Shown one piece after another: positions 12,501-50,430 of a stretch of DNA of 64,000 nucleotides. How positions within the stretch are numbered: the stretch's first letter is position 1; every line of letters starts with the position of its first letter. The DNA comes from Hygrocybe punicea (Eukaryota; Basidiomycota; Agaricomycetes; Agaricales; Hygrophoraceae), in contig OY744471.1 of assembly GCA_963556145.1 (NCBI GenBank), positions 3,279,590 to 3,343,589 on the forward strand, given 5' to 3'. The translations under genes were made by a program, and so were the position numbers. The notes below the pieces were generated by a model. It saw only the letters and a list, made by a program, of their open reading frames with translations. It was not told the origin of the DNA and ran no database searches.

Positions 12501-12505
12501 AAAGG

Positions 12506-20431: not shown

Positions 20432-21236
20432 GATATTTAAGGAATGTGTAGAACACTACTTGTAGTGTCCAAAAAAAATAAACAGGTTCGGCAATGAATG
20501 TATTTGGCATGTCCGGCATATTGGTCCAATGGTTCTGATTTAGGCTAGTTGCGTGCCTGCGGCAACATAGTCTACATTAAGTAAATGATTGATGTGTCCT
20601 GATTTGTCAATTGGTAACAAATTTCCAGTTTGGGAATTCTAAGGGTCTGATGTGTGATGCGCCACAATTCGGTCCAGGCTTCTGGTCATATGGTTGCTGA
20701 GCACATGTGTGCCATGTGTTTGATGGGTAGGAGCGTATATTAGACTGACGTTTGTGTTCCCCTTTTTCCTCAGCTTTGTCCTGCGCGTTCGAGCGCCAGC
20801 TCCTTTTCTCCTGCTATTCCGCTGCCAGGGAATCGTAACTATCCACGGCTATGAATTCTGCTTGCCCCAATTATTTATTCTCCTAAAAAAAACAACGGCC
20901 CCTTTTCGAAAAAGGGTGGTGAGTCGTTCTTTTGTAAACGCTTTTCTTGTCATTAACTATTTCTTGGCCTAGTCTTGCGTTATTTTTCTAATTCCGAGCT
21001 CCAGCGATTGTACGTTCGTTTCCGGCAAATGATGGGAGGTGGGAACGGGGGATGTCCTTCCATAGAGTGGTACACTGGTCTCTGGGCGTGTAGCAGGGGT
21101 GGAATATCTGGGATTGGCTTCTAGGATCTGGGTGGGGTCACTGTTTGTCTGTCTCTTTTTACATCTCCTTTCCATACACATTTCTTCATTATTTCTTGGA
21201 CTAAGCATGGCGCGATATCGTATTTTATTTCTTCCA

Positions 21237-24857: not shown

Positions 24858-25074
24858 CTGCAAGAAAAAATTTAAAAGAAAGCATAAATAAAACACAACA
24901 ATTCTGGAGATTATGGAGATTAGGGGTAAATGTTCAACTATAGTGAGAAAAAGGCATAACAGCAATTCTGTAAAGGAGAAGCAAATTCTGTACATCAATA
25001 GAAATAGCAGCATATAAAATAAAATCATTGGTTCAAATATACAAAACAGACTTGTCAAAATTGGATGCTGTCCT
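24858..25074 (-). other. AT-rich gag-pol junction, possible intron
   Basis: 217 bp in element sense after the gag-protease stop (25075) and before a strong acceptor (TTTTTTCTTGCAG). In the pol frame it would encode an implausible run of hydrophobic residues. No convincing donor inside gag was found, so splicing is only a possibility. Confidence 0.35.
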
Positions 25075-28000: not shown

Positions 28001-30567
28001 TCACTTCTGCAGGGTGTCTCCAAATCTATGATATCTCCATAAGAGTTAATTAAATCTGGAATGTCTTCCAAGGACATATTAAATTCCAGGTTATCCTCCT
28101 CTGGGTTTTGACAATTTATTTCTTCATTGGAAGATAATTCTGCTGAATCCAGGGGTTCCGGAATGGGATACCTCCTAAATCTGGGTGGTATGCAATCTGA
28201 ACTGGTGCTAGGAGTAGCACTTTTGCATGAAGAATTATTTTCAGATGCAGTAATTGTGAAAATCTGGTCATGTCTTTGAGGAGCAGGATAATGGTCAGCT
28301 GTGACCATTATTTCAAACTTGGCTCCAGAGTCTGAGGCATCTTTAAAAACTAGATATGTTCCTTCAATTCTTTCATCAATAGTGACAAAATTTCCCCTTT
28401 GCCAGGGTCTTCCAAGAAGTAAATCGAATGGTACAGACTCACCAATGAATAGATCTGCATAAGTAAGAACACCTCCACATGTCAATGGGACATTTGGTAC
28501 CAGACCTTTGAGGGTTCCTACTCCTCCATTAGCATCATTCATGGTAAGACTTTTTCCTAAATCAACTGGTCTGCGTATTCTTGCTTTCCAAATTTCTTTG
28601 TTGACAACATTGAGCTGGGATCCTGTGTCAATAATGGCAGTGATAGGATAATTATCACATTCCATTCTGAGCTTGATTAATATTCCATGTTGTCTTGGGG
28701 CATATGTGCTTGCAACTACAGAGACCTTGGGATTCTTTCTCTTCAGCATCTCTGTAAGCTGATCTGATAAATCTCTGGATGAAGCTAGAACTTCCCTTAC
28801 TTGAAGAGTAACTGGGGTATCAAGGATTTGGTTGATAACCTGAGTATCTCCCATGTTAGATGATAGTTCTGACTGCCTGAGTGGTAACTTGGGACGTGGA
28901 ATTGACTTGTCAGGAGTTGCTTTAGAAGTGTGAGACTTGTTTGTAATGTCCTGCATTTCAATGTCTCCATTGGCAACTGGGGGTTGTACAGTCCTAGGTA
29001 CTCTGATATCAAATGGAATGGGTTGCATTTGACGAATTTCTTCAATGCGAGTAGGTGGATTTCCTTTAGGAATGTTGGCTGGTGCAGGAACATTTTCCTG
29101 ATTGAGATTCTGCTTTGAAGCAGGTTTGGCAGTAGTGCCTGTAGATCTTGGTTTAAGGTTTTCTTTGTCCTTGTTCCTTTGTCTAGCAGGTGGGTAAACT
29201 CCATCAAATGCTTCTTTTCTGGCAGAGGTAATCTTGTGCTGGCCTCTGTCAGCAGCCATAATCTGAACATCTTCTATACCATTGTGTCCAACATAAGTGG
29301 CCGGTGTATAGAATGCATCCATATCTTCTTCAGCATCTGACTGATAGTAGTCAGAGAATGGGTCTTGAAGAGCATAGAAGTTGGTCTGTAATGCTTCTGA
29401 AGCGTTCCGTTCTAGAGCATGAATTATTGTTTCACCCATGCGGCGGCGTATGTTGGATCCATCACTCTTGACTAGTTTCCCAAGGGGATCTCTAATGAGA
29501 GTTCCTGACTGAATAAGTTCATTTATCTTGGGGCATATCTGGAGTCCATGTCCTTTTATACCACAACCGAAACAGGTGATGGGTTCACTTTCTTCAATGT
29601 TTGCAGTAAATGGTGCTTTGCTAGGTATTTGATTCTGAAGGATTCCAGGAGGCTTTGGAAGGGTTCTTGGTTGGTGTAGGAGGGGTGCTTTGACACAATG
29701 GGCAACATCTGGGTCTAGCTTAATTGCCTTATAATAAGCTAGTCCATAACGCTGATCATCCAGTGATAGGTTTCCCATTTGTTTGATTAGGGCTTCAACC
29801 TCATCTTGTACAGATTTGGTCTTCTTCTCTGGCCCTTTCTTGAAGGTATCCTTCCTATCAACATCCTTCTTGGTAGCTTTCTTGGGGGTTTCATATTCAG
29901 AATCCACTTTATACCTGTGACTCTTCTTCTTCTTTTCCAACTTCTTCTTCTTGTATCTTTCATTATAATCAGAATCACTTTCATCATCTGATGATTCATC
30001 ACTGGAAGAATCTGAATCATCATCCCTGTCTCTATCAGGAATTTCATCATCAGAATCTGCCAGATTAATGTCAAATCGATTGCGTTCAAATAGGATCTCT
30101 GCAACCTTGATGACTTTGTCCATTGGGAATGGCTCGGTTACATCTAGGGGAGTTGAGCCAGAGCTAAGTCTGAGCTCAATGCGATGACGTTCATAGCGTT
30201 TCCATCTGGTAAGTGTCTTGATCTCTTTTTGTTTCCAAAGGCATGTCAGAGTTGAGAGATCTCTGAGGATGTAATGTGTTTCTTTATAAGCAGCATCATA
30301 GTACTTCAAGAAGTCTGCTTCTAATTTGGTCCAGTCAGATCTCATGAAGCTATCCAGAGCTTCAATCAATTTGACTACCTTGCGAGAGCAATAGTCCACA
30401 ATGCGATCACATTTGTCAGCATCTGTGAGACCATATGCTTTGCTAACTTGGTTGTAGTGCCTGAGGAAGCGTTTGATATCCTCATGGCTGCCTGTGAACT
30501 TTGATGGTGCTCCCTTCTGGCCTAGAAGGGGCATCATGTCTGGGGTAAGAGTGGATGTAATAGTCAT
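25075..30567 (-). CDS. gag: Element 2 Gag-protease with a very long C-terminal extension
   Basis: 1830 codons from ATG 30567. The capsid-like N-terminus includes MMPLLGQKGAPSKFTG and YGLTDADKCDRI. A charged linker (DSDSSSDESSDDESDSD, Lys-rich) leads to a CCHC knuckle (CFGCGIKGHGLQIC, about 29,570-29,530) and a retroviral-type aspartic protease (IIDTGSQLNVV, about 28,640). About 1000 further residues are Ser/Pro/acidic low complexity, closing with a better-ordered tail (LATQAWKFRIDQRP, YFYHQCYLFRFLDREN, LTHEEIEFLRNASMVF). The N-terminus is clearly related to the family 3 Gag at 41407. Within the extension, about 26650-27750 is CpG-rich while its surroundings are CpG-poor, yet the frame stays open. 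Confidence 0.85.
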   Translation of the reverse strand: MTITSTLTPDMMPLLGQKGAPSKFTGSHEDIKRFLRHYNQVSKAYGLTDADKCDRIVDYCSRKVVKLIEALDSFMRSDWTKLEADFLKYYDAAYKETHYILRDLSTLTCLWKQKEIKTLTRWKRYERHRIELRLSSGSTPLDVTEPFPMDKVIKVAEILFERNRFDINLADSDDEIPDRDRDDDSDSSSDESSDDESDSDYNERYKKKKLEKKKKSHRYKVDSEYETPKKATKKDVDRKDTFKKGPEKKTKSVQDEVEALIKQMGNLSLDDQRYGLAYYKAIKLDPDVAHCVKAPLLHQPRTLPKPPGILQNQIPSKAPFTANIEESEPITCFGCGIKGHGLQICPKINELIQSGTLIRDPLGKLVKSDGSNIRRRMGETIIHALERNASEALQTNFYALQDPFSDYYQSDAEEDMDAFYTPATYVGHNGIEDVQIMAADRGQHKITSARKEAFDGVYPPARQRNKDKENLKPRSTGTTAKPASKQNLNQENVPAPANIPKGNPPTRIEEIRQMQPIPFDIRVPRTVQPPVANGDIEMQDITNKSHTSKATPDKSIPRPKLPLRQSELSSNMGDTQVINQILDTPVTLQVREVLASSRDLSDQLTEMLKRKNPKVSVVASTYAPRQHGILIKLRMECDNYPITAIIDTGSQLNVVNKEIWKARIRRPVDLGKSLTMNDANGGVGTLKGLVPNVPLTCGGVLTYADLFIGESVPFDLLLGRPWQRGNFVTIDERIEGTYLVFKDASDSGAKFEIMVTADHYPAPQRHDQIFTITASENNSSCKSATPSTSSDCIPPRFRRYPIPEPLDSAELSSNEEINCQNPEEDNLEFNMSLEDIPDLINSYGDIIDLETPCRSDPEIDKPPRISDGQAHEEAPLSSEPESNSKRNYSYKDIVELVLENNGQQADKSAGPEETTTEPSGMQRNPPQFLINEIPLPRTVDWIHTEWNPNAAQTIIAALGDQIEDQPQSARFLFASPLGYRLPPKRDRFGTPFEHGVLLNTTLAAMDSSGAPPSLRMGHLVFQFYPVSPPPSYSTSDDSTSESTLHLSPLSSMFDPRPLFPLLFPVHTSATSPSSPPPCPSSCTLSSRASTPAINDRIDGDDQSEYADDEWNCDNSIEGWEWDGDAVSSYTNTLRECSPPPRKMNQSDSDDERFAPAANVAIAEAPLAALFTIQSTTRPFLSPPSNNPPSHKRPASYAGTHLEQPPEAALVHNLVAQIVPSINMDLPDFDNDLRDYTTAESRSHAISVRMDRDPSLALVNNDMEAQELPAPSRFLATSNIRITCHPISAVRDNPSTPPSLIHPEEEPPPKPLLNGPWFPQDLHSSFQSPPPSPSPSFYRNPYATPSPIVSPMYSPVLNPISPDCDPFEESPSTVYEVHPNADPSDPANVNYLEYLVHPSSSTNDDSSSLYMDQEDSAEEDSVSSDTPLIPKIQTLRPPLPCPNLEETGDSDNRIQGHPPSRTWISPESIFGSSDEEFSDSSDSSDCSMDLETDSEDELDMFRWEEEVKDHPTISPNSGSSSHCDPPPPVVSTTDVDILKNSSLNPMAKPFIPSSSIHISDDPWPPPEGPEITSLSDEDTQIPFDKAKSLHALETNIPQEKNPRLLSPISLETIPALRSNFPETNILCQLEAEVPLQSSSTPIQVFAITTSDQGHSQPHDHPQPRDLAAAQILAAEPDFHTTQDVHLGILSAIRGAIVEGIRHIGARLATQAWKFRIDQRPVNDPVRLYFYHQCYLFRFLDRENKLPPPSNPTSHNKPIRFLESNPLLTHEEIEFLRNASMVFRSNRRFLLADAINAVLDMRFRRSDTINALFDEGYFDPPDFSKSHHRPSQ

Positions 30568-30642
30568 TGGGAAGGACTATTAACTGTAGAGTTGATAATG
30601 GATATGAGTGGGAATATGAGAGAGTTATTGATGAACCTTGGC

Positions 30643-30659
30643 CCTCGCGGTGGGCTCCA
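30643..30659 (-). other. Element 2 primer-binding site
   Basis: In element sense TGGAGCCCACCGCGAGG, starting 5 nt after the LTR, complementary to a tRNA 3' end (...GGCUCCA). The same 17-mer is the primer-binding site of family 3 copies A and B. The donor tRNA was not identified. Confidence 0.7.
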
Positions 30660-30975
30660 ATTTCTGTTTTGCGTGGGAAGTGTTTGAACAAATCCACACC
30701 AAGGGTTTCCGGAGTGCGTCGTTGATTGGGAAATTACCTTGTTGTCCTTTAGGAACAAGGATTTAGCTCTTTAATAACTCTGGGGTATTCCTGTTGGGTG
30801 GTTGGGTTGTAGTGTGAATCCTATCAAAGGTTAGCTTTGAGGGATACAACAAATACTTAACAATAATATAAGTCAGATGTATGACTTATAGAGGATGAGT
30901 GAACAGTGAGGTCTTCCCTACTGAAGGTAAAGACTTTGAGTGACAAGAGGTATGCGAGAGTATAAGTGGATAATA

Positions 30976-31982
30976 CATCAGGAAATTGAACATGAAATGA
31001 GAAAGTCTTATAAGACCTGATCTGATACATCATAAGTAACATCCAGTATCACTATGATGACAGCCAGGTCAACTCAGATAAATTATGGTTACCTAGATGA
31101 AAATACATCACATCAAGCATATTGATGTCAATGTAGCATTAGTTGCCAACAATGTCTTGACCACTAATTCTGGTATTCATTGGTAACCAATGATATTAGA
31201 ATATCTGTTATTGAGTAATAGGAGGGGAAAAAATTCTGCCTTTTAACCATTGTCTTTCTCATTCACTTATCTTATAATGGTCTCATGTTAAATCTTCTTG
31301 GAATTTATCTGATGTTATCTCAAGGTCTTAGAATTAATTTTATCTAATCTTATCTCAAGGTCTTGAAAGTATCTTATCTCACTTATTGTCTTATTGTCCA
31401 GTTTGAATGCTTAATATAAGTGTAAGGATGAAAAATTGAGACATGAACAAGATTTTGTATTTTGTTCAACCCACAGGTGTGCAGCCAAATAGTGCCAACA
31501 TATGTGTACATATTTATACAGACTCCAGGTACAAGAAAGATAGTTACTTGCCAATGGAATGCCAAATCTTAACAGTGTGACCATGCATAGATTTTAATAT
31601 ATCACCACATACAAAATGATTCCAGTCTTGCAATACCTCTGAGAAGAATTCACCATCTTAACATCAGAATTACATGACATGATCTTAGAATATCAGTGTG
31701 ATAGCTACAGGAATAGTGTGACAATATTGTTATCAGAATTACATGACTTTATCTTAAAATATCAATGTGATAACTACAGGAATAGTGTGACAATATTGTT
31801 ATCAGAATTACATGACTTTATCTTAAAATATCAATGTGATAGCTACAGGAATAGTATGACAATATTGTTATCAGAGTTCTAAATTGTGATAAGCTTATAT
31901 ATCACTAGATCACATGATATCAGTCAGCTATCTGTTGATAAGATCTGTCTGGAAATCCCTGTGTCTCCACGTTTTCCTGATG
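30976..31982. mobile_element. MITE with TA target duplication inside the element 2 5' LTR
   Basis: 1007 bp. The ends CATCAGGAAA and TTTCCTGATG form a 10-bp inverted repeat and are flanked by TA on both sides (30974-30975 and 31983-31984). The empty site is present in the other LTR (about 17834-17837), which proves the boundaries. No transposase frame is seen. TA duplication suggests mobilisation by a Tc1/mariner-like transposase (inference). Confidence 0.88.
31672..31876. repeat. 69-bp tandem repeat, about three units, inside the MITE
   Basis: ACATGAC recurs at 31672, 31741 and 31810, with the intervening 69 bp nearly identical (ATATCAATGTGATAGCTACA, GAATAGTGTGACAATATTG). Because 69 is divisible by three, it creates a repetitive short frame on the plus strand that I do not regard as a gene. 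Confidence 0.8.
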
Positions 31983-33575
31983 TAACTCAAGCAAGTATGA
32001 ACAGTGTAAGATGAACAAGTGTACAACAGTCAAGTATACAAGTAGCAAGTATACAATGAGCAGAGGTACAATAGAGATGAGCAATAGATTATAGACAATG
32101 GGTGGTAGACGATGGGCGATGGGCGAGTGTAACAGTAGATGTCAAACAAAGGGAGGTGTGATGAAATACTATGTACAGAATGAATGAACTGAACAATAGG
32201 CAAGTAGGATTGATGATCAAGATATCGGACTTTATTCCGAAGCTTCAAACGCACATTGGCTACTAGTGCAGAATAAAGTACTGGGATATCTTTGGTGATG
32301 ATCAATAGAACTTGAAAGAAGATGAATGTGACTGTACTACGTGACAGAACACAAAGAATATATATCAAACAAGTAATAAGGGAGTATCAATAAATCTGAG
32401 ATTGATATCCTTAAACAAATGAATGATGACTTGAACTGCAATTGGTATTTGGGTACTAGCTACTACCCAAGTAGGTAATACAAAACAAATACAGATGGGG
32501 TGAATCAGAATCTGGGAGAGGGACTGTCCTGTGACTGGGCCTGTCAGATTAGGTGACTGAGCCATCTCCAGCAGAAACTGGGCTCTATATATACCTATTC
32601 TACAGCAGGAGTCATACTGAGTCATAGAATGGTATATCAAATGGAGAGCATAGGATATGACTCATAGGGAGTCATATAGAGGAGAGGCATAGGTTTATGA
32701 CTCATAAGGAGTCATAATGATGAAAGGCATGGGGGGTTATGACTCATAAGGAGTCATAAGAAAGGAAGGCATGGGTTTGTGACTCATACAGAGTCAATTA
32801 ATGAGTCACATAGGTATTATAATCAAAGGAGGGGGCATAATGAGTCAGAAATAGTCATAATTAGTCATGGGTGGTCATAATGAGTCATGGGGGGTCATGA
32901 GTATGTCATAAGGGTCATAATTTGTCATGGATAGACCAATGAGTCACATTTGATGGGAGTGAGTCATGCCACTGGTCTAATCTTGGGTGTGTGAATCAGA
33001 GGCAAGGGCTGTGCCAGGGTATGCTTCTAGAATCATCTTCCTGAGGCTGTGCTTCTTGATCAATTGATGCCATGCCATGTGTGTATCCTTATCAGTTAAG
33101 AAAAAGATAAGATCTGGGCTGGGCTGTATTTGATCAATTGATATGAAATGTGATGTGCTTCTTGATCAGGGAATGATGGGTGGCATGTGTTATCTCTATG
33201 ATTGGAGATAAGGATGTGGCTGTGCTTCTTGTGCTTCTTTGGCCTCTGATAAGATGTTTTGGGGGCCTTATCAGTTAAGATAAGGGTATTCCTTCATTTC
33301 TTCTGCATAGATAAGGGTTTTCTTGCATGTCCCTTCTGTAGATAAGGGTTTCCTTGCATGTCCCTTGTATAGATAAGGGTTTCATGTATGTCCTATGTGC
33401 AGATAAGGATTTCCTGTGTGTCCTATATGCAGATAAGGGTATTCCTTTCTACTCCATATGCAGATGGGGGCTTTCCAGTATGAATGGTCCTTGTAATGTG
33501 ATGTGTGCTGTAGGGATGGTGACTAGTGACAGCATATTACTATGTTTTGATCCGAATCCTGTTTGGATCATGACA

Positions 33576-34052
33576 CCGTCACGTGGCGCACCCCTTGTAT
33601 GGGATCGTGTTGGTGTCAGTACTCCGGTTCTCAATTTTATATTGTTCATTGTTTCCACTTTCGTCTTATTTTGTCACCATATATTGGACCTCCGCCCCCT
33701 CGACACCTTGCTCAAATTTTTGCAAGAAGCTCTTCGTCTCCTCTTGTCATTCCACCTCCGCTCTTCTTTCAGAAACTCTTGTGGGGATGAGGATTCGTTT
33801 CCGTCTCCTATTTTTGCGTTTTTGCCTTCCGTTCCGCTTTCCGTTCCTGTTCCCATATCTCCTTTATTTATATTTTCATTTCCGTTTCTAGTTTTCTTTG
33901 TTTCCCGCTCATTCCGGTCCCTTTTCGTTTCCGCTATATTCCGGTGCCGTCCTCCACCTCGACCACCAGATTCTGTTTCACTTTGTTTTCCATTTCACTT
34001 TGTTTTCCGTTTCACCCTTTCCATCTATAGATTTTATTATGTACTCTTTTAG
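33576..34052 (+). pseudogene. Family 3 Gag C-terminal remnant (copy D)
   Basis: The frame matches the C-terminal part of the copy A Gag (VGVSTPVLNFILFIVSTFVLF, SFRNSCGDEDSFPSPIFAF, RCRPPPRPPDS). It is fused by chance to an open frame in element 2's LTR. The N-terminal capsid part is missing. Confidence 0.7.
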
Positions 34053-34106
34053 TTTATGTACATTGTCCCGCATTCCATTTCCCGTCCATTTCTGTCCATT
34101 TCCCTT

Positions 34107-35657
34107 TTATTCCCTTCCCCCTTTATCGAGTTTCGTGTCAATTAGGTTGAGTTGACCAAGGATGGGGGCTTGGTTCATGCGGAGTCGGTTTAGCTCTTTT
34201 GTCCAATGGGTTAGTTTTGTATGGACCTCCGCGATGTATTCCGATAAGCCGTCCGCAATGGCTGATATCTCCTGTTGTGTTTCTGTCACCATCTTCCGCA
34301 TAGCATGGACATGCTCTTCAATTCCGGCACCGATCCGCAGCTGCTTGAACAGATTCTCTCGTCTCCCATTGTCCCATTCCAATTCTGTGTCTGGTTCGAT
34401 GTTGGTTAGCGTCCGTTTACTTGTCGACACCTCTCCGGCCCGTAGCTTGGGCTTCTTCACAGCCTTCGGAATCTTCTTTGCGACGATTGGTCTCTTTGGA
34501 CTTCCCACCTTCACCTTCCCTTTCCATTCCGCTTTCCCAGTTCCGGTGGCCGGTCCCTTCGTCGATAACCCGCAGTGTCATTTCAGCCTTTTGCATCAGT
34601 CGCATGCGTACCCTTCAATTCCGCGACAAACCACATTGGCAGTCACACATGCATTGCACTGTCGGATCCAGAACGACTGCATGTACTACAGATTAGTTAG
34701 GCACCACGGATATACGAGTTTGTGAGACATTACTTACCCCCAGAAGCTTTCCCTTTGGTCCCGTGTCCCCATTTCCGCTCGCATTCGAGAAATCGTCCCC
34801 GCTATTGTACTCTCTGCGAATGGTCTCATTGTCTCGGATGGCCTTTTTGTTTTTGAGCGCCTTAAGAGCTTGGAGCCTCTCGTATTTCTGGAGTTGTTGC
34901 TTGGCCCAGTCGCCGTCCGTATCCTCATCCTCGTCCTCATTTCCATGATCGATGGCTTGTCCAAACTCCTCCCAGTCTCTTTCCATGGCTTCCTCAGCCT
35001 CCCTTTTTGCTGCCTCTGCTGCCTTTGCCCTTTCCGCCTCCTCGATCCGCTTCACTTCCACCCTCCTATTTATCTCCTCCTCGTACTGGCGCAATTCCTC
35101 CACTCATTTCTGCTCGAGCTCCGCCACCTCCACAACCCGTTGTCTCCTTGCTTCCTCCTCCTCCTTTTCCTCCTGCAACCGTGACGCTTCCTTGACTTCC
35201 AGACACACCACCTCTTCCCGTTCCCGCTTCATGAACTCCTCACGATTCTGCAACCATTCCTTGACCTCGACCACCATCTCTCCACCCATCGAGAAGTCCC
35301 TTGGTTCCATCACATTGATTCCGTCATCCCAGATTTCCGTTGTAGGCCCCCTGTAGTTCCGCTGCTGGGTATCATTAGTTTGTGCCGTTTATGAGAATGG
35401 AATCACTTACCATGGCCCGTCATCATCTCACCACCCATTGCTGCGCCTCGTCCTCGTATCCATCGCGTATAATCTCGATTCCGGCTGCGTCCACTGCCAC
35501 TAGCTCAGCCACGGCGTTCTCGAAGTTTTTCCGCATATCCGCATCGAGTTTTCCAAGGAAGTGGTTGTATTCCGTCGACATTTGGTGTTGGAGTTGGGGT
35601 TTGTTGGGATTGTTGAGCTTGTTGAGGTTGCTGTCGAGATTGTCGAAGTTGCGTTGA
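34107..35657 (-). pseudogene. Antisense coiled-coil/zinc-cluster gene, copy D (broken)
   Basis: Same three-exon layout as the intact copy at 48092-49641, but with in-frame TGA codons: after LEQK near 35104, and twice in the zinc cluster (near 34643 and 34625), where the intact copy has Arg codons or CGA/CGG. Splice sites (GTAAGT at the first and CTAAC...CATGCAG at the second intron) are still recognisable. Confidence 0.75.
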
Positions 35658-35916
35658 AAGGTTTTCCTGTTTGTATTTGTTGCCCCATCACGTGACCATT
35701 ATTCCCTTGTTTAGCCGTCTCGCCCATACTATTTTGGTAGCTCCGGGTCGACCCTCCCGAAGCTTCAATACCCACCGGCTTTGACTCCGCTCACGTTGTA
35801 CTCCTGTTTCCACCCATTTTCGACATCACTTCCACTATTTTCTTCCCACAACCCTAGGATCTTTGTTGCTTCATATGGATCGACCAGGGATGGTCTCAAT
35901 CTGAGACCTGACTGGA

Positions 35917-36520
35917 TGTAGAGGCTCCAGATCATGTGGATCCGTTTCCCCTTCATATCAGACACCGTTCCCATCCATTCCCATTCCCGTATCATTGATT
36001 CCGTTCAATTCCGCTTGTTTCCATCAATTCAGCTCCAGATTCCGCCTCTGGAATCATTCCTACTCAAGATGCAATGTCCCTAACGACCCAGAATCAGTAC
36101 GTATATAGTTATATATCATGTATCTTCGTTTCCCATCTCCTAGTACATAGCACTCCTCCTCTCCACTCACCCCTATCACTTACAGCCTTTGCTTGTAGTA
36201 CATGGTTACTACAGCACAGGATCCTCACAGTAGTATAAAAGTAGCACATTTATACTATAAACCATATAGAAAATACAGGGTACCATTCCCCCTCACGTCT
36301 TATCATCCCACTTTAGTTCTATTTCTGAGTCCACTCTTTGTATCGTCTACACCGCTCATAGTCCTTTCCCCACACTCACCCTCTGATTCCAGAACCCCTG
36401 GATTCGGGTTGGATTGACTAGACCTTTCTAAAAGAAACTAAATTCCTCTAATCACTTCTTAGCTGATCACCCCTTTCCGTAGATTCCCATTCCGGATCTA
36501 CAACCCCACTTGCCGTCACA
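35917..36520 (+). repeat. Family 3 LTR, copy D
   Basis: 604 bp, TGTAGAGGCTCC...GCCGTCACA, aligning with the 599-bp LTRs of copy A but clearly more diverged. Confidence 0.85.
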
Positions 36521-40624: not shown

Positions 40625-41223
40625 TGTAGAGGCTCCGGGCCCTCTAGACCCGAATCCTCTTCATATCCCACTTCGTCCCCGTCCAGTCCCATTCATGTAT
40701 CGTCGATTCCGCCTGATTCCGGTCGTTTCCATCGATTCCGCTCCGGATTCCGCCTCCGGATTCGTTCCTACATGCACTGCAATGTCTCTAACGACCCGGA
40801 ATCAGTACGTTTATAGTCACATATGATATATCTTCATTTCCCGTTACTTAGTACATAGCACCATTCCCCCTATACTCCGCTCCACCTCTCTACCATCAGT
40901 TACAGCCTTCGCTTGTAGTACCTAGTTACTACAGCACAGGATCTCTCCCAGTAGTATAAAAGATGTACTCTTATACTACAACCATATAGAAAAATACAGG
41001 TTATCGCTCCCCTTCAGTTCTATTTCTTAGTCCTCCCTTCGTATCGTCTCCATATTAGTCTTCGTAACTCCACTCCCTACACTTCCCCTCTAATCCAGAA
41101 CCCCTGGATTCGGGTTGGATTGATTAGACACTACAAAGACACTAAACTCCTCTGATCACTTCTTAGCTGATCACCCCTTTTCGTAGATTCCCATTCGGGT
41201 CTACAACAGAACTCGCCGTCACA
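40625..41223 (+). repeat. Copy A 5' LTR
   Basis: 599 bp. A TATAAAAG box lies at 40955-40962, giving a U3 of roughly 360 bp. Confidence 0.88.
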
Positions 41224-41225
41224 AC

Positions 41226-41242
41226 TGGAGCCCACCGCGAGG
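41226..41242 (+). other. Copy A primer-binding site
   Basis: TGGAGCCCACCGCGAGG, 2 nt after the LTR; identical to that of element 2 and copy B (47360-47376, min strand). Confidence 0.75.
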
Positions 41243-41406
41243 AATTTATTTCTTTTGTCTTTTCATACCCTCCCCACCGTCGGGTTTGACTTTCATGACG
41301 TTTTTCTTTTGTTCCCGACTCTAATCGCTCAGCCCTGCTTACGACTTCGACCCCTTCCTCATACCTCCCCGACCCGACCTGCTTCCCGATTTGGAAATTC
41401 CCCGAT

Positions 41407-43134
41407 ATGACGCACGGATTGATGCCTCTCCGAGGTGATCGTTCAGCCCCGACGTTTCACGGTGACGAACACGACCTTCCCCGCTTCTTTGACGAAATTG
41501 ACATGCTCGGCTCCGACTGTGGACTCACGGACGCTATGAAGATTCGCTACATGCTCCGGTACCTCGATAATGACGATTACGAACTTTGGTCTACCCTACC
41601 CGCCGCTTCAGCAAAGGACTTCATTGCTTTCCGACGTGCCGTTTTCGCCTTCTATCCCGGTGCCACGGACAGTATTCGGTATATGATCGCGGATCTTGAT
41701 CAATTGATTAGACGACAATCGGCTTATGGTATAGAAAACAAGATGGACTTAGGACAGTATTTCCGGGACTTCATACGCATATCCGGAGTACTATACGACA
41801 ACGGCCGTTTATCGGACAAGCAGCGGAATGAGTATTTTGCCAACGGATTTGACTCAGATCTTCGTCAACGTGTTGAAGAACAACTCCATTACCTTCTTCC
41901 CAGTCATTACCACGACGATCCGTACCCGGTTGATATTTTCCACAACGCCGCGTTATTTCTCCTTTCCGGTTGCCATTCCGTCCCGGAATCCGTTGTCACT
42001 GCAGCCCCCGTTGCCATTTCCAGTCCCGATTCCAGTCCCGCTCCCGCACCCGTCACAGTCATTTCACCTCCGGAACAGATCCCGTCCTCGATCCCGTCCT
42101 CGATCCCATCCTCGATCCCACCCACTGTCGTTCGTTCCGTCCCCCACATTCATTCCGGTCCTTCGTATACTCCGTCCCCATCATCGTGTTCCCCGTCCCC
42201 ATCCATTCCGGTGCCCGTCGAGACCGTCATTTGTTTACAGGTTTTGTCGTCCAGTCCCGTGTCGCCCCCGTCCGATCCCACTCCCGATTTATCGATGCCG
42301 GTCAACGATTTATCCATTCCGTTTCCTATTTCGTCCCCGTCATCTCCGGTTTCGTCCCCTCCGGTTTCCGTCCACGAACTCATACCAGACCCGCTCCAAT
42401 TGTCATCGGATTCTCCAGAAATAGACATTCCGTCCCCGACATTGCCGCCATATTGTCCTCCGTCACCGTCTATCGAGATTCCGTCGACTTTGGTTGAGTA
42501 TTCCGTACCCGTTCCCATTCCGGACTCCATTCCACCCCTTGTATTTGATTTCGATTCCGGTTCCGATTCCGTTATGTCGACCCCTTCGTTCCCAGTTCCC
42601 CTCGTCGTTCCCACTCCCGTATCGTCTCCGGTTCCCTCCTCGCCCACTTGGGGCACTTTGTCGTTTCCACCCGCTTGGGGCACCCCGTCGTTTTTAGACC
42701 CGTCACGCGGCACACCCATTATATGGGATCGTGCTGGTGTCGGCACTCCGGTTCTCAATTTTATTTTATTCCTCGTTTCTGTTTTCATTTTACTTTGTCA
42801 TCGCATTCTGGACCTCCGCCCCCTCAACTCCTCGCTCGAATATTTGCAAGAAGTTCTCCGCCTCCGACCTTCTTTCAGAAACTCTTGTGGGGATATAGAC
42901 CCGTTTCCGCCTCCTATTTTTGCGTTTTCATCTTCCGTTCCGCTTTCCGTTTCCGCTCCCGTTTCTCATTTATTTATATTTTCGTTTCCATTTCTAGTTT
43001 CCTTTGTTTCCCGCTCGTTCCAGACCCGTTTCGTTTCCATTGTATTCCAGTGCCGTCCTCCTCCTCGACCCCCAGATTCCGGTGTGACGGCGAGTTCGGT
43101 TGTAGACCCGAATGGGAATCTACGAAAGTGGTGA
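41407..43134 (+). CDS. gag: Family 3 Gag, copy A (3' end displaced by copy B)
   Basis: 575 codons; the last 17 lie in copy B's LTR, so the native part is 41407-43082. The N-terminal capsid-like domain (MTHGLMPLRGDRSAPTFHG, CGLTDAMKIRYMLRYLDNDD, FIAFRRAVFAFYPGA, LGQYFRDFIRISG) is homologous to element 2's Gag. A long Ser/Pro/Val-rich low-complexity region follows, then two hydrophobic segments (TPVLNFILFLVSVFILLCH and HLFIFSFPFLVSFVS) that could span a membrane, unusual for a Gag. No zinc knuckle or protease is seen. Reading through where B is removed, the native frame would stop near 48016, about 75 bp from the convergent antisense gene's stop. Confidence 0.82.
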   Translation: MTHGLMPLRGDRSAPTFHGDEHDLPRFFDEIDMLGSDCGLTDAMKIRYMLRYLDNDDYELWSTLPAASAKDFIAFRRAVFAFYPGATDSIRYMIADLDQLIRRQSAYGIENKMDLGQYFRDFIRISGVLYDNGRLSDKQRNEYFANGFDSDLRQRVEEQLHYLLPSHYHDDPYPVDIFHNAALFLLSGCHSVPESVVTAAPVAISSPDSSPAPAPVTVISPPEQIPSSIPSSIPSSIPPTVVRSVPHIHSGPSYTPSPSSCSPSPSIPVPVETVICLQVLSSSPVSPPSDPTPDLSMPVNDLSIPFPISSPSSPVSSPPVSVHELIPDPLQLSSDSPEIDIPSPTLPPYCPPSPSIEIPSTLVEYSVPVPIPDSIPPLVFDFDSGSDSVMSTPSFPVPLVVPTPVSSPVPSSPTWGTLSFPPAWGTPSFLDPSRGTPIIWDRAGVGTPVLNFILFLVSVFILLCHRILDLRPLNSSLEYLQEVLRLRPSFRNSCGDIDPFPPPIFAFSSSVPLSVSAPVSHLFIFSFPFLVSFVSRSFQTRFVSIVFQCRPPPRPPDSGVTASSVVDPNGNLRKW

Positions 43135-43673
43135 TCAGCTAAGAAGTGATCAGAGGAGTTTAGTGTCTATAGTCTAGTCAATCCAACCCGAATCCGGGGT
43201 TCCGGATCAGAGGGGAAGTGAAGGGAGTGGAGTACGAAGACTAATATGGAGACGATACGAAGCGAGGACTAAGAAATAGAACTGAAGGGGAACGACAACC
43301 TGTATTTTCTATATGGTTGTAGTAGAAGAGTACATCTTTTATACTACTGGGAGAGATCCTGTGCTGTAGTAACTATGTACTACAACCGAAGGCTGTAACT
43401 GATGGTAGAGAGGTGGAGCGGAGTATAGGGGGAATGGTGCTATGTACTAAGTAACGGGAAACGAAGATATATCATATGTAACTATATGCATACTGATTCC
43501 GGGTCGTTAGAGACATCGCATCTTGAGTATAAACGATTCCGGAGGCGGAATCCGGAGCGGAATCGACGGAAAGGACCGGAAACGGGCGGAATCGACGATA
43601 CGTGAATGGGACTGGACGGGGACGAAGTGGGATATGAAGAGGATTCGGGTCTAGAGGGCCCGGAGCCTCTACA
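43083..43673 (-). repeat. Copy B 3' LTR
   Basis: 591 bp, matching 47379-47969. Confidence 0.88.
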
Positions 43674-43863
43674 TCCGGTCAGGACTCAGATAGAGACCAT
43701 CCCTGGTCGATCCATACGAAATAACGAAGATACCGGGGTCGTGGGAATAAATGAGTGGAGGCGATGTCGAAAATGGACGGAAACGGGAGTACAACGTGAG
43801 CGGAGTCAAAGCCGGCGGGTATCGAAGCGTCAGGAAGCAGTGGTCCAGAGCTACTAAAAGAGG

Positions 43864-45407
43864 GTGGGGCGAAACGGCTGGATAAAGGAACAACGGTCAC
43901 GTGATGGGGCAACAAATACAAACAAGAAAACTTTTCAACACGACTTCAACAATCTCGACAACATCCTCAACAAGCCCAACAAACCCAACAAACACCAACA
44001 CCAACACCAGATGTCGACGGAATACGACAATTTCCTCAACAATCTCGATGCAGAAACGCGGCAAGATTTCGAGAGCACCGTGGCCGAGTTACTAGAAGTC
44101 GACGCGGCCGGAATCGATATCGTACGCGACGGATTCGAGAACGAAGCACAGCAATGGGTGGTGAGACGACGACGGGCCATGGTAAGAGATCCCGTTTCTG
44201 TAAACGGCACGGACTAACGATACCCGGCAGCGGAACTACAGGGGAATCTTGACGGAAATCTGAGACAATGGAATCGACGTGACGGAACTGAGGGATTTCT
44301 CGATGGGCGGAGAGATGGTGGTCGAGGTTGAGGAATGGTTGCGGAATCGTGAGGAGTACAAGAAGCGGGAACGGGAAGAGGCCGTGCGTCGGGAAGTCGA
44401 GGAAGCGTCACGTTTACAGGAGGAGAAGGAGGAGGAAAATAGGAGGGCGGAAGCGGAGAAGCGGATTGAGGAGGCGGAAAGGGCGAAGGCGGCAGAGGCA
44501 GCAAAAAGGGATAATGCAGCTGCGGAAAGGGACCGGGAGGAGACTGCACAAACCAGCAATCACGGAAGGGAGGACGAGGAGGACACCTGGTCCAACCAAC
44601 AACTACGAAAATACGAGCGGCTTCAAGCACTCAACGCGATCAAACACAAAAAGCTCAACCGGGATAAGAGGGTCACCCGGGACGACGAAACCGTTCACGG
44701 GGACTACAACAGCGGCAACGATTTCTTGAATGCGAGCGGGAACGAGGACGCGGAACCGAAGGGAAAGATTCCGGGGGTAAGTGATATCTCGTGGACTCGT
44801 ATATCATTTCCATCTAACTAATCCGTAGTATATGCAGTCGTACCGGATCCGGCAATGCGATGCATGTGTGACCGCCAACGCGGTTTGTCGTGGAATCGAA
44901 GGATATGCGTGCGATCGGTGCAAAAGACTTAAACGACGTTGCGGATTGTCGACGAAGGGACCGGCCACCGGATCCGGAAAAGCGGAAAGGAAAGGGAAGG
45001 CGAAGGTGGGTAGTCCGAAGAGAAAGGTCGTCGCGAAGAAGATACCAAAGCCCGTGAGGAAGCCTAGGTTGCGGACCAGAGAGGCGTCGACAAGTAAGCG
45101 GACGTTGACCGACGTCGAACCGGATACGGAATCGGAGCGGGACGAAGGGAGACGAGGGAATCCATTCAAGCACCTGCGGATTGGAGCCGGAATCAACGAC
45201 CACGTCCGGGCAGTACGCAAGATGGCGACGGAAACGCAAAGGGAGATATCGACGATCGCGGACGGCCTTTCTGAATACGTCGCGGAGGTCCACACCAAGC
45301 TAACCCGTTGGACGAAGGAGCTAAATCGACTACGCGCGAACCAGGCCCATATCCTGGGTCAACTCGACCTAATCGACACCAAACTCGACGAAGGGAGAAG
45401 GGAATAA
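43864..45407 (+). pseudogene. Antisense coiled-coil/zinc-cluster gene, copy B (one stop)
   Basis: Exon 1 43864-44175 (HQMSTEYDNFLNNLDAETRQ, EAQQWVVRRRRAM), exon 2 from 44226 to about 44776, exon 3 44834-45407. In exon 2, shortly after the splice, ATC TGA GAC replaces ATC CGA GAC of the intact copy: a single CGA-to-TGA change that truncates the protein. Downstream the coiled coil (REEAVRREVEEASRLQEEKE) and the cluster CDAC-x6-C-x7-CDRC-x6-C remain intact, so it decayed recently. Confidence 0.8.
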
Positions 45408-45534
45408 AAGGGAACGGACGGAAAAGGAGGGGAAACGAACCGCGGGACAATGTACATAAAAATAAAATGAGTACATAATAAAATCTATAATGGAAAGGGA
45501 GAAACGGGTAACTACATAAGCCAGAATCTGGAGG

Positions 45535-47184
45535 TCAAGGTGGAGGGCGGGACCGGAATACAACGGACACGGAATGGGATCGAAACAAACGGGAAACAAG
45601 GAAAACTATAAACGGAAACGAAAATATAAATAAGTGGAGGCCGGGAGCGTGAATGGAAAGCGGAATGGAAGACGAAAACGCAAAAATAGGAGATGGAAAC
45701 AGGTCTACATCCCCACAAGAGTTTCTGAAAGAAGGTCGGAGGCGGAACGACGAGAGGAGGTGGAGAACTTCTTGCAAATATTCGAGCGAGGTGTCGAGGG
45801 GGCGGAGGTCCAGAATGCGATCACAAAGTAGAATGAAGACGGAAACGAGGAATAAAATAAAATCGAGAACCGGAGTGCCGACACCAACACGATCCCATAT
45901 AATGGGTGTGCCACGTGACGGGTCTAAAAACGATGGGGTGCCCCAAGCGGGCGGAAACGACAAAGTGCCCCAAGTGGGCGAGGAGGGAACCGGAGACGAT
46001 ACGGGAGTGGGAACGACGAGGGGAACCAGGAACGAAGGGGTCGACAAAACGGAACCGGGACCGGAATCGAAATCAAATAAAAGGGGTGGAATGGAGTCCG
46101 GAATGGGAACGGGTACGGAATACTCAACCAAAATCGATGGAATCTCAATAGACGGTGACGGAGGACAATATGGCGACAATATCGGGGGCGGAATGTCTAT
46201 TTCTGGAGAATCCGATGACAATGGGAGCGGGTCCGGTACGAGTTCATGGACGGAAAGCGGAGGGGTCGAATCCGGAGACGACGTGGACGAAATAGGAAAT
46301 GAATTGGATAAATCGGTGACTGGCATCGATAAATCGGGAATGGGATCGGACGGGGACGACACGGGACTGGACGACAATACCTGTAAACAAATGACGGTCT
46401 CGACGGGCACCGGAATGGACGGGGACAGGGAACACGATGACGGGGACGGAGTATACGAAGGACCGGAATGAACGTGGGGGACGGAATGAACGACGGTGGG
46501 TGGGATCGAGGTCGGAATCGGGACCGGAGATGACAAAGCTATGACGGGTGGGGGACTGGGACCGGAATCGGGACTAGAGATAGTAACGGCAAGGGAAGGG
46601 GATTTTGGAACGGAGCGATAACCGGAAAGTAGGAATAAGGCGGCATCGTGGAAAACGTCGAGCGGGTATGGATCGTCGTGGTAATGGTCGGGAAGAAGGT
46701 AATGGAGGCGTTCTTCAATACATAGACGAAGGTCTGAGTCGAATCCGTTGGCGAAGTATGTGTTCCGTTGCTTATCCGATAGACGGCTGTTGTCAAACAA
46801 GACACCGGAAATGCGTATGAAATCCCGGAAATATTGTCCTAAGTCCGCTTTGTTCTCTATACCGTAAGCCGATTGTCGTCGCGTAAGTTGATCGAGATCC
46901 GAGATCGTATACCGGATGGAATTCGTAGCACCAGGATAAAAGTCGAAGACGGCACGTCGGAAAGCGATGAAGTCCTTTGCTGAAGCGGCGGGTAGGGTAG
47001 ACCAAAGTTCGTAATCGTCGTTATCGAGGTACCGGAGCGTGTAGCGAATCTTCATAGCATCCGTGAGTCCACAGTCGGAGCCGAGCATGTCAATTTCGTC
47101 AAAGAAGCGGGGAAGGTCATGTTCGTCACCATGAAACGTCGGGGCTGAACGATCACCTCGGAGAGGCATCAATCCGTACGTCAT
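45535..47184 (-). pseudogene. gag: Family 3 Gag, copy B (early stop)
   Basis: 549 codons, about 90% alike copy A over the capsid part (MTYGLMPLRGDRSAPTFHG, FIAFRRAVFDFYPGATNS). It stops at 45535 (CCT CCA CCT TGA), where copy A has CGA. The C-terminal hydrophobic segments are kept. Confidence 0.78.
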
Positions 47185-47378
47185 ATCGGGAATGTCTAAA
47201 TCGGGATGCGGGTCGGAAAGCGGGTCGGGTCGAGGAGGTTCGAGGTCGAGGTCGAAGGCGTAAGCGGAACTAAATAACTAGAGTCGGGTAGAAGAGGGAA
47301 ACATCATGAAAGTCAAAGCCGACCGTGGGGAGGGTATGAAAAGACAAAAGAAATAAATTCCTCGCGGTGGGCTCCAGT

Positions 47379-47969
47379 TGTGACGGCGAGTTCGGTTGTA
47401 GACCCGAATGGGAATCTACGAAAGTGGTGATCAGCTAAGAAGTGATCAGAGGAGTTTAGTGTCTATAGTCTAGTCAATCCAACCCGAATCCGGGGTTCCG
47501 GATCAGAGGGGAAGTGAAGGGAGTGGAGTACGAAGACTAATATGGAGACGATACGAAGCGAGGACTAAGAAATAGAACTGAAGGGGAACGACAACCTGTA
47601 TTTTCTATATGGTTGTAGTATAAGAGTACATCTTTTATACTACTGGGAGAGATCCTGTGCTGTAGTAACTATGTACTACAACCGAAGGCTGTAACTGATG
47701 GTAGAGAGGTGGAGCGGAGTATAGGGGGAATGGTGCTATGTACTAAGTAACGGGAAACGAAGATATATCATATGTAACTATATACATACTGATTCCGGGT
47801 CGTTAGAGACATCGCATCTTGAGTATGAACGATTCCGGAGGCGGAATCCGGAGCAGAATTGACGGAAAGGACCGGAAACGGGCGGAATCGACAATACGTG
47901 AATGGGACTGGACGGGGACGAAGTGGGATATGAAGAGGATTCGGGTCTAGGGGGCCCGGAGCCTCTACA
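47379..47969 (-). repeat. Copy B 5' LTR
   Basis: 591 bp, followed in element sense by a 2-nt spacer and the 17-nt primer-binding site (47360-47376). Confidence 0.88.
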
Positions 47970-48091
47970 CCGGTTATCTTATCTCGTCGTTCTGTTTCCC
48001 TCTTTTCCGTTTATAGTTTTATTATGTACTCTATTTTTCTTTTTATGTACATTGTCCCGCATTCCGTTTTCCCTTTTCGTCCATTCCCCTT

Positions 48092-49641
48092 TTACTCCCT
48101 TCTCCTTTCGTCGAGTTTCGTGTCGATCATGTCGAGTTGGCCGAAGATATGGGCTTGGTTCGCGCGTAGTCGGTTCAGCTCCTTCGTCCAACGGGTTAGC
48201 TTGGTGTGGACCTCCACAACGTATTCAGAGAGGCCATCCGCAATCGTCGATATCTCCCTCTGCGTTTCCGTCGCCATTTTGCGCACTGCCCGGACGTGGT
48301 CGTTGATTCCGGCTCCGATCCGCGGGTGCTTGAACGGATTTCCTCGTCTCCCTTGGTCCCGCTCCGATTCCATATCCAGTTCGACGTCAGTCAACGTCCG
48401 CTTACTCATCGACACCTCTCCGGTCCGCAACCTAGGCTTCCTCACAGGCTTTGGTATTTTCTTCGCGACGATTTTCCTCTTTGGACTACCTGCCTTCGCC
48501 TTCCCTTTCCTTTCCGCTTTTCCGGATCCGGTGGCCGGTCCCTTCGTCGATAACCCGCAGTGTCTTTTAAGCCTTTTGCACCGATCGCACGTGTATCCCT
48601 CGATTCCGCGACAAACCGCGTTGGTGGTCACGCACGCATCGCATTGCCGGATCCGGAACGACTGCATATACTACGGATTAGTTAGGCACAACGGATATAC
48701 GAGTCCACGAGATATCACTTACCCCCGGAATCTTTCCCTTCGGTTCCGCGTCCTCGTTCCCGCTCGCATTCGAGAAATTGTTGCCGCTGTTGTAGTCCCC
48801 GTGAACGGTCTCGTCGTCCCGGTTGACCCTCTTATCCCAGTTGAGCTTTTTGTGTTTGATCGCGTTGAGTGCTTGAAGCCGCTCATATTTTCGTAGTTGC
48901 TGATCGGACCAGGTGCCCTCCTCGTCCTCACTTCCATGATGGCTGGTTTGTGCAGTCTCCTCCTGGTCCCTTTCCGCGGCTGCATTATCCCTTTTTGCTG
49001 CCTCTGCCGCCTTTGCCCTTTCCGCCTCCTCGATCCGCTTCTCCGCCTCCGCCCTCCTATTTTCCTCCTCCTTCTCCTCCTGTAAATGTGACGCTTCCTC
49101 GACTTCCCAACGCACGGCCTCTTCCCGTTCCCGCTTCTTGTACTCCTCACGATTCCGCAACCATTCCTCAACCTCGACCACCATCTCTCCGCCCATCGAG
49201 AAATCCCTCGGTTCCGTCATGTCGATTCCATTGTCTCGGATTTCCGTCACGATTCCCCTGTAGTTCCGCTGCTGGGTATCGTTAGTCCATGCCGTTTACA
49301 GAAATGGGATCTCTTACCATGGCCCGTCGTCGTCTCACCACCCATTGCCGTGCTTCGTTCTTGAATCCGTCGCGTACGATATTGATTCCGGCCGCATCGA
49401 CTTCTAGTAACTCGGCCACGGCGCTCTCGAAGTCTTGCCGCGTTTCCGCATCGAGATTATTGAGGAATTTGTTGTATTCCGTCGACATTTGGTATTGATG
49501 TTGGTGTTGGTGTTTGTTGGGTTTGTTGGGCTTGTTGAGGATGTTGTCGAGATTGTTGAAGTCACGTTGAAAAGTTTTCTTGTTTGTATTTGTTGCCCCA
49601 TCACGTGACCGTTGTTCCTTTATCCAGCCGTTTCGCCCCAC
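48092..49641 (-). CDS. Coiled-coil, Zn2Cys6-like protein carried antisense in family 3 (intact copy A)
   Basis: Three exons, 49641-49318, 49268-48723 and 48661-48092, give 479 aa; an internal ATG at 49488 (MSTEYNKFLNN) would give 428 aa. Introns are 49 and 61 nt with GTAAGA/GTAAGT donors, ACTAAC/CTAAC branch sites and CAG acceptors, and phases fit. Domains: Asn/His-rich start; acidic helical segment (LDAETRQDFESAVAELLEV); long Glu/Lys/Arg coiled coil (about 120-230); then a cysteine cluster C-x2-C-x6-C-x7-C-x2-C-x6-C in exon 3, the spacing of fungal Zn2Cys6 DNA-binding clusters; a basic linker (SPKRKIVAKKIPKPVRKPR); and a C-terminal helix (TKELNRLRANQAHIFGQLD). It lies between gag and the 3' LTR, convergent to gag. 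Role unknown: perhaps DNA binding or regulation of the element. Confidence 0.8.
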
Positions 49642-49831
49642 CCTCTTTTAGTAGCTCTGGACCACTGCTTCCCGACGCTTCGATACTCGCCGGCTTCGAC
49701 TCCGCTCACGTTGTACTCCCGTTTCCGTCCGTTTTCAACATCGCCTCCGCTCATTTATTCCCACGACCCCGGTATCTTCGTTATTTCATATGGATTGACC
49801 AGGGATGGTCTCTATCTGAGTCCTGACCGGA

Positions 49832-50430
49832 TGTAGAGGCTCCAGGCCCTCTAGACCCGAATCCTCTTCATATCCCACTTCGTCCCCGTCCAGTCCCATT
49901 CATGTATCGTCGATTCTGCCCGATTCCGGTCGTTTCCATCGATTCCGCTCCGGATTCCGCCTCCGGATTCGTTCCTACATGCACTGCAATGTCTCTAACG
50001 ACCCGGAATCAGTACGTTTATAGTCACATATGATATATCTTCGTTTCCCGTTACTTAGTACATAGCACCATTCCCCCTATACTCCGCTCCACCTCTCTAC
50101 CATCAGTTACAGCCTTCGCTTGTAGTACCTAGTTACTACAGCACAGGATCCCTCCCAGTAGTATAAAAGATGTACTCTTATACTACAACCATATAGAAAA
50201 ATACAGGTTATCGCTCCCCTTCAGTTCTATTTCTTAGTCCTCCCTTCGTATCGTCTCCATATTAGTCTTCATAACTCCACTCCCTACACTTCCCCTCTAA
50301 TCCAGAACCCCTGGATTCGGGTTGGATTGATTAGACACTACAAAGACACTAAACTCCTCTGATCACTTCTTAGCTGATCACCCCTTTTCGTAGATTCCCA
50401 TTCGGGTCTACAACAGAACTCGCCGTCACA
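49832..50430 (+). repeat. Copy A 3' LTR
   Basis: 599 bp, matching 40625-41223. No clear polypurine tract precedes it. Confidence 0.88.

Follow-up and report, generated by a model that had tools for sequence, protein, structure and literature searches.

Purifying selection on an intron-containing antisense gene carried by a gag-only long terminal repeat retrotransposon family in Hygrocybe punicea

We analysed a 64,000-nucleotide stretch of the Hygrocybe punicea genome (contig OY744471.1, positions 3,279,590 to 3,343,589, assembly GCA_963556145.1; hereafter the window), which holds three copies, A, B and D, of a long terminal repeat (LTR) retrotransposon that encodes gag without pol. Copy A (40625-50430) is composed of a 5' LTR, a primer-binding site, a sense gag, a three-exon gene on the antisense strand and a 3' LTR, in that order, and copy B is inserted into its gag. 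This convergent pairing of gag and a three-exon gene inside an LTR element had been described in an earlier reading made from the letters without database searches (the sequence-only reading), and its order, coordinates and splice signals are present in the sequence. Across the copies in this genome the antisense frame, not the sense frame that overlaps it, is under purifying selection. The features of copies A and B are as follows.

40625..41223, plus strand: copy A 5' LTR, with TG..CA ends and TATAAAAG at LTR position 331, the TATA position
41226..41242, plus strand: copy A primer-binding site TGGAGCCCACCGCGAGG, immediately 3' of the LTR
41407..43082, plus strand: copy A gag, an open reading frame (ORF) interrupted by copy B at 43083, 86% identical to copy B gag
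43083..47969, minus strand: copy B, complete and nested in A, with an exact CCGG target duplication
43083..43673, minus strand: copy B 3' LTR, placed by LTR comparison
43895..43924, plus strand: copy B block GGTCACGTGAYGGGGCAACAAATACAAACA, 5' of the antisense ATG, a candidate core promoter or 5' leader (28/31 copies)
44011..44181, plus strand: copy B antisense exon 1, with the ATG present in 31/31 copies
44182..44230, plus strand: copy B intron 1, 49 nt, GT..AG and CTAAY branch in 31/31
44231..44776, plus strand: copy B exon 2, highly charged, with one premature TGA; 31-codon repeat unit in other copies
44777..44828, plus strand: copy B intron 2, 52 nt, GT..AG and CTAAC in 31/31
44829..45407, plus strand: copy B exon 3 with stop, encoding a six-cysteine cluster, a basic linker and a C-terminal helix (helix predicted on copy L048)
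45535..47184, minus strand: copy B gag, 549 aa, with a capsid-like fold modelled on L048
47360..47376, minus strand: copy B primer-binding site
47379..47969, minus strand: copy B 5' LTR, inner end placed by its CA terminus
48092..48670, minus strand: copy A antisense exon 3 with stop
48671..48722, minus strand: copy A intron 2
48723..49268, minus strand: copy A exon 2
49269..49317, minus strand: copy A intron 1
49318..49488, minus strand: copy A antisense exon 1, beginning at ATG 49488
49581..49610, minus strand: copy A conserved upstream block with CACGTG
49832..50430, plus strand: copy A 3' LTR

Copy A ends in its LTRs and is flanked by a 4-bp target duplication with one mismatch (ATGT/ACGT). 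Its LTR pair differs at 6 of 601 aligned bases (99% identity), and that of copy B at 7 of 591 sites. By eye, no clear purine run (polypurine tract) is seen directly 5' of the copy A 3' LTR at 49832. A predicted tRNA 3' end complementary to the primer-binding site occurs at two genomic places and is a candidate tRNA match. The 3' part alone of copy D was found (33576-36520), adjoining a large Ty3-type element; this copy is a broken relic with three recognisable parts.

33576..33962, plus strand: copy D gag remnant, 82% identical to copy B gag
34107..35581, minus strand: copy D antisense gene, three exons and two introns recognisable, several stops
35917..36520, plus strand: copy D 3' LTR

The exon limits were projected from copy B onto 31 copies, comprising A, B, D, 20 copies fetched from elsewhere in the genome and eight shorter loci. 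Both introns are GT..AG in all 31, and the branch sequences (CTAAY in intron 1, CTAAC in intron 2) are retained throughout, which bears out the good donor, branch and acceptor signals proposed from copies in the window. Intron lengths are constant at 49 and 52 nt, apart from one copy in which intron 1 has 48 nt and another in which it has 50. The ATG start codon (49488 in A, 44011 in B) is likewise kept in every copy. Exon 2 ranges from 531 to 813 nt, partly via a 93-nt (31-codon) repeat, and despite this variation its length remains divisible by three in 28 of the 31 copies. Two incomplete copies (L043 and L026) were dropped to give the 29-copy tests reported below, and L036 was also dropped for the cysteine count, leaving 28. 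Sixteen of the 29 complete copies have an uninterrupted reading frame and encode products of 426-489 aa; copy A is fully open, as had been stated, and copy B contains one in-frame TGA, at codon 68. The copy A product has 431 aa from the conserved ATG; the 479-aa product of the sequence-only reading has as its start a GTG directly behind a stop codon and has to be shortened to this length.

A 79-residue probe spanning the exon 2/3 junction gave no uninterrupted match of usable identity, and so no intronless copy, among the best 150 of 600 candidates. Nearly all of its alignments end at the acceptor; the exception, a 62% match at C41, falls on an ordinary copy that has its intron. The result does not include the place C40:2712984 (398-codon frame). 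Antisense introns are no splicing substrate in the sense genomic RNA and would therefore be copied, and the absence of intron loss in all 31 copies is consistent with copying from sense RNA, as had been expected. Spliceosomal-type introns thus persist here through many rounds of copying, which the antisense placement would explain.

We next describe the family across the assembly (92.2 Mb in 42 contigs). A DNA probe of LTR plus gene gave at least 84 matches (best 40 of 872 candidates scored); the exon 3 and gag probes had 496 and 692 candidate places, respectively, with the best 150 scored in each case. The primer-site region was matched 534 times with at most three mismatches, compared with 0 for the reversed control, and some of the 534 matches may stem from other families sharing the primer site. 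The 20 fetched copies, taken with their flanks, are the best matches to a probe of the 3' LTR plus the gene, so that independent evidence comes from gag and the 5' LTR. By BLAST, 17 of the 20 have LTR, gag, antisense gene and LTR all in order, including three (L034, L036, L037) whose gag carries an insert. Gag and the antisense gene occur together in 19 of the 20. Two copies (L039, L041) are without the 5' LTR in the fetched stretch, and L043 has the 3' LTR and a truncated gene only, without gag in its stretch. Using exon 3 as the only probe, an opposite-strand gag was found downstream within 12 kb at 124 of the 150 scored places, in 104 of them at 1.5-2.3 kb from exon 3. So frequent a pairing goes well past coincidence. 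Among copies with two LTRs, an exact 4-bp target duplication is present in 10 of 18 and one with a single mismatch in 5 of 18; it was not found in the remaining 3 of 18 (L031, L032, L036). Four copies have an LTR divergence of 0.33% or less. With paired LTRs, a primer site, target duplications and gag without pol, the element is a non-autonomous gag-only LTR retrotransposon family.

These counts also bear on the idea that the gene is a captured host gene, constrained by its function for the host, with the LTR element as a passenger. Its introns are of the spliceosomal type, 26 of the 150 exon-3 places have no gag among the matches listed (which the restriction to the best-scored gag matches could explain), and L043 lacks gag in its stretch. 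Against this, the gene has gag as its neighbour within an element in 19 of the 20 fetched copies, and the selection described below was estimated from copies of the element, on internal branches as well. We therefore give the host-gene explanation a very small likelihood; the gene belongs stably to the element, as the sequence-only reading had it, and not a host gene joined by LTRs by chance.

The insertion sites have a pattern of their own. Nine of the ten exact target duplications have the form N-CG-N (the tenth is GTGG), and the form is found in 14 of 15 duplications if five CG mismatches are read as CpG decay; for comparison, the CpG frequency of the window is 0.047. The integrase serving this family seems to pick CpG steps. 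At one locus (G000:C35:1851870-1869778), five exon-3 places are spaced exactly 4334 bp apart, an apparent tandem array of the element.

To assess selection, we placed the changes on a tree relating the 29 copies. Their numbers per site at first, second and third codon positions are 0.86, 0.60 and 1.42 in exon 1, 0.89, 0.74 and 1.31 in exon 2, and 0.70, 0.61 and 1.83 in exon 3, compared with 1.33 and 1.06 in the two introns. We also calculated an omega-like ratio, in which silent changes are compared with random placement on sites of equal base and CpG class, using 1034 of the 1290 inferred changes, those starting from the commonest base. For the antisense gene as a whole this ratio is 0.59; it falls to 0.47 when internal branches are taken by themselves and to 0.36 at sites outside CpG, where a new stop codon arose once against 12.1 expected. 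For gag the same measure outside CpG, taken over A, B and 14 of the 20 fetched copies (16 in all), is 0.25 at residues 1-200 and 0.77 at residues 201-549. Constraint on the antisense gene thus falls between that on the two parts of gag, being somewhat weaker than in the capsid part. The substitution test across copies that the sequence-only reading called for accordingly finds purifying selection on the antisense frame, and having many natural copies, young members among them, within one genome allows it to show that selection keeps this frame.

The reverse assignment, in which the true gene is an extension of gag on the sense strand and the antisense frame an artefact, had to be considered. 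The sense gag frame extends through the antisense gene to 847-860 codons in four of 15 copies (L031, L044, L047, L048), and L032 reaches 789. Furthermore, the third positions of the two frames coincide over exon 3, so position counts alone cannot decide the strand. We therefore compared substitutions in both frames at once. Over exon 3, changes that are silent in the antisense frame and alter the sense frame were seen 17 times (8.2 expected), and antisense-silent changes that create a sense stop five times (1.6 expected). The converse class, antisense-changing and sense-silent, is below expectation (8 seen, 11.2 expected), a small difference that argues weakly in the same direction. Only two changes alter the antisense frame while creating a sense stop, where 5.7 were expected, a deficit that constraint on either frame would explain. 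In 10 of the 15 copies read, the sense frame stops short of codon 570, and a stop-free frame opposite exon 3 arises in 30% of random synonymous recodings. Together, the two-frame substitution test and this chance estimate rule out the gag extension as the true gene, which we regard as extremely improbable; the extension is most simply a by-product.

The same results bear on whether the antisense transcript might act as RNA, through double-stranded RNA or transcriptional interference, the protein being incidental. The convergent arrangement would suit such a role, and antisense RNA functions are discussed for other elements in the available parts of PMC7264820. However, selection at the codon level, the suppression of nonsense changes and the in-frame variation of length argue for a protein; the substitution test largely refutes an RNA role, and we judge it very improbable.

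Decay at CpG is heavy in this family. CpG sites account for 631 of the 1034 classed changes, which suggests methylation. In-frame stops at the exon-3 places are nearly all TGA, an excess expected from C-to-T decay of CGA and a strong signature of CpG decay. The heavy decay and the many copies would both fit a protein that counters host silencing or genome defence rather than regulating LTR transcription. On the other side, Pfam and PDB sequence searches with the antisense product name no silencing-suppressor relative, and we consider this role improbable.

The cysteine cluster of the product is encoded by exon 3, where the pattern C-x2-C-x6-C-x7-C-x2-C-x6-C is intact in 27 of 28 full-length copies. 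This spacing fits that of Zn2Cys6 proteins (PF00172), C-x2-C-x6-C-x5-12-C-x2-C-x6-8-C, which bind two zinc ions and CGG-containing DNA and have basic residues between cysteines 2 and 3. The first 14 positions of the Pfam profile Zn_clus match the second cysteine half (CDRCKRLKRRC) of the antisense product. In this product, unlike in Zn2Cys6 proteins, the basic residues sit between cysteines 5 and 6, so that the basic half comes in reversed order, and 15 of 17 members match the profile only at E values up to 1, the best being 0.02. The Zn2Cys6-like spacing pointed out by the sequence-only reading holds, and the product falls short at the Pfam cutoff and in the placement of the basic residues: it resembles a zinc cluster and may work as one, and by the criteria tested it is no member of the Pfam family. 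Next to the cluster, a basic linker has runs that look by eye like nuclear signals, and a helix is predicted with high confidence for most of its length at residues 119-190 of L048 exon 3.

Relatives of exon 3 were found in a protein collection, where three metagenome sequences from JGI sources (P0001, P0002 and P0004) are 88, 79 and 43-45% identical. All three keep the cysteine cluster with the same fit to the Zn2Cys6 spacing, and the six cysteines and the CDRCKRLK core are retained down to 45% identity. A search of viral contigs with exon 3, gag and a profile gave no confirmed relative.

For gag, a model of the L048 protein has a predicted capsid-like fold at residues 91-189. Foldseek with this model returned nothing at an E value of 0.001 or better; on structural re-alignment retroelement capsids occupy ranks 1-5, with the reservation that Z-scores below 13 call for caution in helical bundles. 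Further along, residues ~430-540 in A and B contain two hydrophobic stretches that look membrane-like by eye, after a long Pro/Ser-rich region.

The CCHC pattern is absent from the gag frame in the 10 copies scanned. The nearest metagenome gag relative (P0003, JGI source; best 7993 candidates scored) has a CCHC-type motif by eye, and no Pfam family was found in it. This difference raises the possibility, the main rival to a regulator of the element, that the antisense protein serves in trans as a nucleocapsid or packaging factor, doing the RNA-binding or chaperone work in the particle. Its basic linker and C-terminal helix, and the retention of gag and the antisense gene together, would be in keeping with such a function. 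On the other hand, a non-autonomous element could borrow the nucleocapsid-bearing gag of a helper, and the CDRCKRLKRRC half resembles fungal zinc-cluster DNA binders, although below the cutoff. We know of no precedent for a nucleocapsid made from a spliced antisense mRNA, and find a packaging role rather unlikely.

With regard to expression, copy B has a 30-nt block bearing CACGTG at 116 nt 5' of the antisense start codon; 28 of the 31 copies keep this block intact. It is likely the core of an antisense promoter or leader, although the region changes at about the rate of the LTR.

The hexamer CGGAAT is frequent in the element, at 3.7-8.3 per kb in the LTR, gag and antisense gene compared with 0.3-0.8 in four other parts of the window. 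It does not occur in the short leader or in the 184-bp stretch before the 3' LTR. Copy A has a cluster of these sites ~160-250 bp 5' of the LTR TATA box. As a specific target within the LTR, CGGAAT is weakened by its density in gag and the antisense gene and by its variation between LTRs.

A candidate source of pol lies in the same window. The large Ty3-type element adjoining copy D (17526-33575, minus strand) encodes reverse transcriptase, RNase H and integrase domains, the integrase core scoring below its cutoff. Its primer-binding site has the same 17 nt as that of the gag/antisense-gene family:

30643..30659, minus strand: primer-binding site of the large Ty3-type element, identical over 17 nt to that of the family

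The start of its gag is weakly similar to the family gag (28% over 102 residues). This element or a relative may supply pol to the family, and the shared primer site is suggestive of a Ty3-type affinity of the pol-less elements. No RVT_1 match lies downstream of gag in sense within 9 kb among 141 places, gags being those among the matches listed (best 150 of 594 RVT_1 candidates scored, nine rows on C39 excluded), and three RVT_1 places lie within 9 kb of gag in other arrangements.

The large Ty3-type element has LTRs of ~1.9 kb, with an insert of ~1 kb in the 5' LTR, a 1833-codon frame (gag start and, by eye, a CCHC-like motif) and a separate pol frame; its flanking 4-mers differ (GCGG, CCGT). 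The nine excluded matches (G000:C39:5092-225248) are in open frames of 1,089-23,230 codons and possibly represent runs of N. Elsewhere in the window, at 5359-12501, is a chromodomain Ty3-type element whose 567-bp LTRs are identical, so that it is probably very recent.

The anatomy, the retained splice signals and the frame-specific selection are observed, and from them we infer the following course. Sense transcription from the LTR would yield the genomic RNA and gag, and a separate antisense transcript would start at a promoter near the CACGTG block, immediately internal to the 3' LTR. Splicing of both introns would give a protein of 426-489 aa that enters the nucleus, binds nucleic acid via the six-cysteine cluster and the basic linker, and multimerises via its helices. 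There it would regulate its own element, affecting LTR output and hence copy number or silencing. The antisense introns would persist because reverse transcription copies them unspliced from the sense RNA, with reverse transcriptase and integrase supplied in trans by another element, perhaps one with the same tRNA primer. We hold the chances of this whole mechanism, with the antisense product as a nuclear nucleic-acid-binding regulator of the element resembling HBZ, a viral antisense protein discussed below, to be about evenly balanced. A bolder version seems doubtful to us: that a capsid-only retroelement parasite evolved a spliced antisense transcription factor, convergent with HBZ, which would bind dense CGGAAT-type sites and set the expression of the whole family (at least 150 gene copies), the antisense placement letting the introns stay for good.

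Several observations weigh against a regulator acting on its own LTR. Zn_clus scores 14.9 bits for the copy B product, 9.3 for A and 15.2 for L048, compared with a cutoff of 21. The exon 3 model is confident for the C-terminal helix alone, and the PDB sequence search gave no solved structure matching the antisense product. The upstream block changes hardly more slowly than the LTR (~0.60 compared with ~0.65 changes per site in 19 copies). CGGAAT is dense through gag and the antisense gene too, its count varies from 0 to 5 sites per LTR copy, and the part of the LTR with the CGGAAT cluster is among the faster-changing parts (19 copies). The link to a helper consists of the shared primer site and the weak gag match, and the genome searches, that with RVT_1 included, list only the best-scored part of each repeat family.

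Among known systems, the plant TR-GAG elements have LTRs and gag without pol, as does this family; we know of no antisense gene in them. In fungi, the claim of novelty made by the sequence-only reading has to be narrowed, since an antisense gene in an LTR element is already in print: Boty of Botrytis cinerea carries brtn (Zhao et al. 2011, by its title as cited in PMC8365987, and mentioned in PMC7264820). According to the available part of PMC7264820, brtn is an additional antisense gene between pol and the 3' LTR. Unlike the gene described here it stands beside pol, and neither splicing nor a cysteine cluster is mentioned in the available accounts in PMC7264820 and PMC8365987. The literature searched yielded no account of a fungal LTR element with an antisense gene that is both spliced and cysteine-clustered; most subscription papers, including the original on Boty, lie outside it. 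Within that literature, and as far as it was searched, the two introns, the cysteine-cluster product, the pol-less carrier and the frame-resolved selection are new.

The closest structural parallels are in plants, where Grande, RIRE2, Retand and PvRetro13 are described as carrying additional antisense genes close to the 3' LTR (available parts of PMC7264820 and PMC11963269). Like these genes, termed aORF-3R, the one reported here lies antisense, in most copies, downstream of the sense coding part and ahead of the 3' LTR, and it is conserved like other proteins of the element (0.36, compared with 0.25 and 0.77 for the two parts of gag, outside CpG). According to the same passages, a nuclear or DNA-binding product has been proposed for plant aORF-3R genes such as Grande gene23, RIRE2 and Retand TRP28, gene23 is nuclear and has its own promoter (PMC7264820), some of the elements are non-autonomous, and about half of the Retand elements have tandem repeats in the corresponding region. 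The family differs from them in that Pfam scans of the antisense product gave no TRP28 match, and introns are not mentioned in the available passages of PMC11963269. The roles of antisense genes in LTR retroelements are given as not determined in the available part of PMC7264820.

Spliced antisense transcripts are described in human T-cell leukaemia viruses HTLV-1 to HTLV-4, and the HBZ mRNA of HTLV-1 is antisense and spliced, its protein product being nuclear and active on the 5' LTR (available part of PMC10186651). HBZ differs in having a bZIP domain and in belonging to a complete retrovirus. The two have in common an antisense gene read from the 3' side, spliced in HTLV-1 and predicted to be expressed and spliced in the Hygrocybe family; for that family, nuclear regulation of the 5' LTR would be an analogy. 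If its product does regulate its LTR, the antisense gene would match HBZ by convergence, outside viruses and in an element that is non-autonomous.

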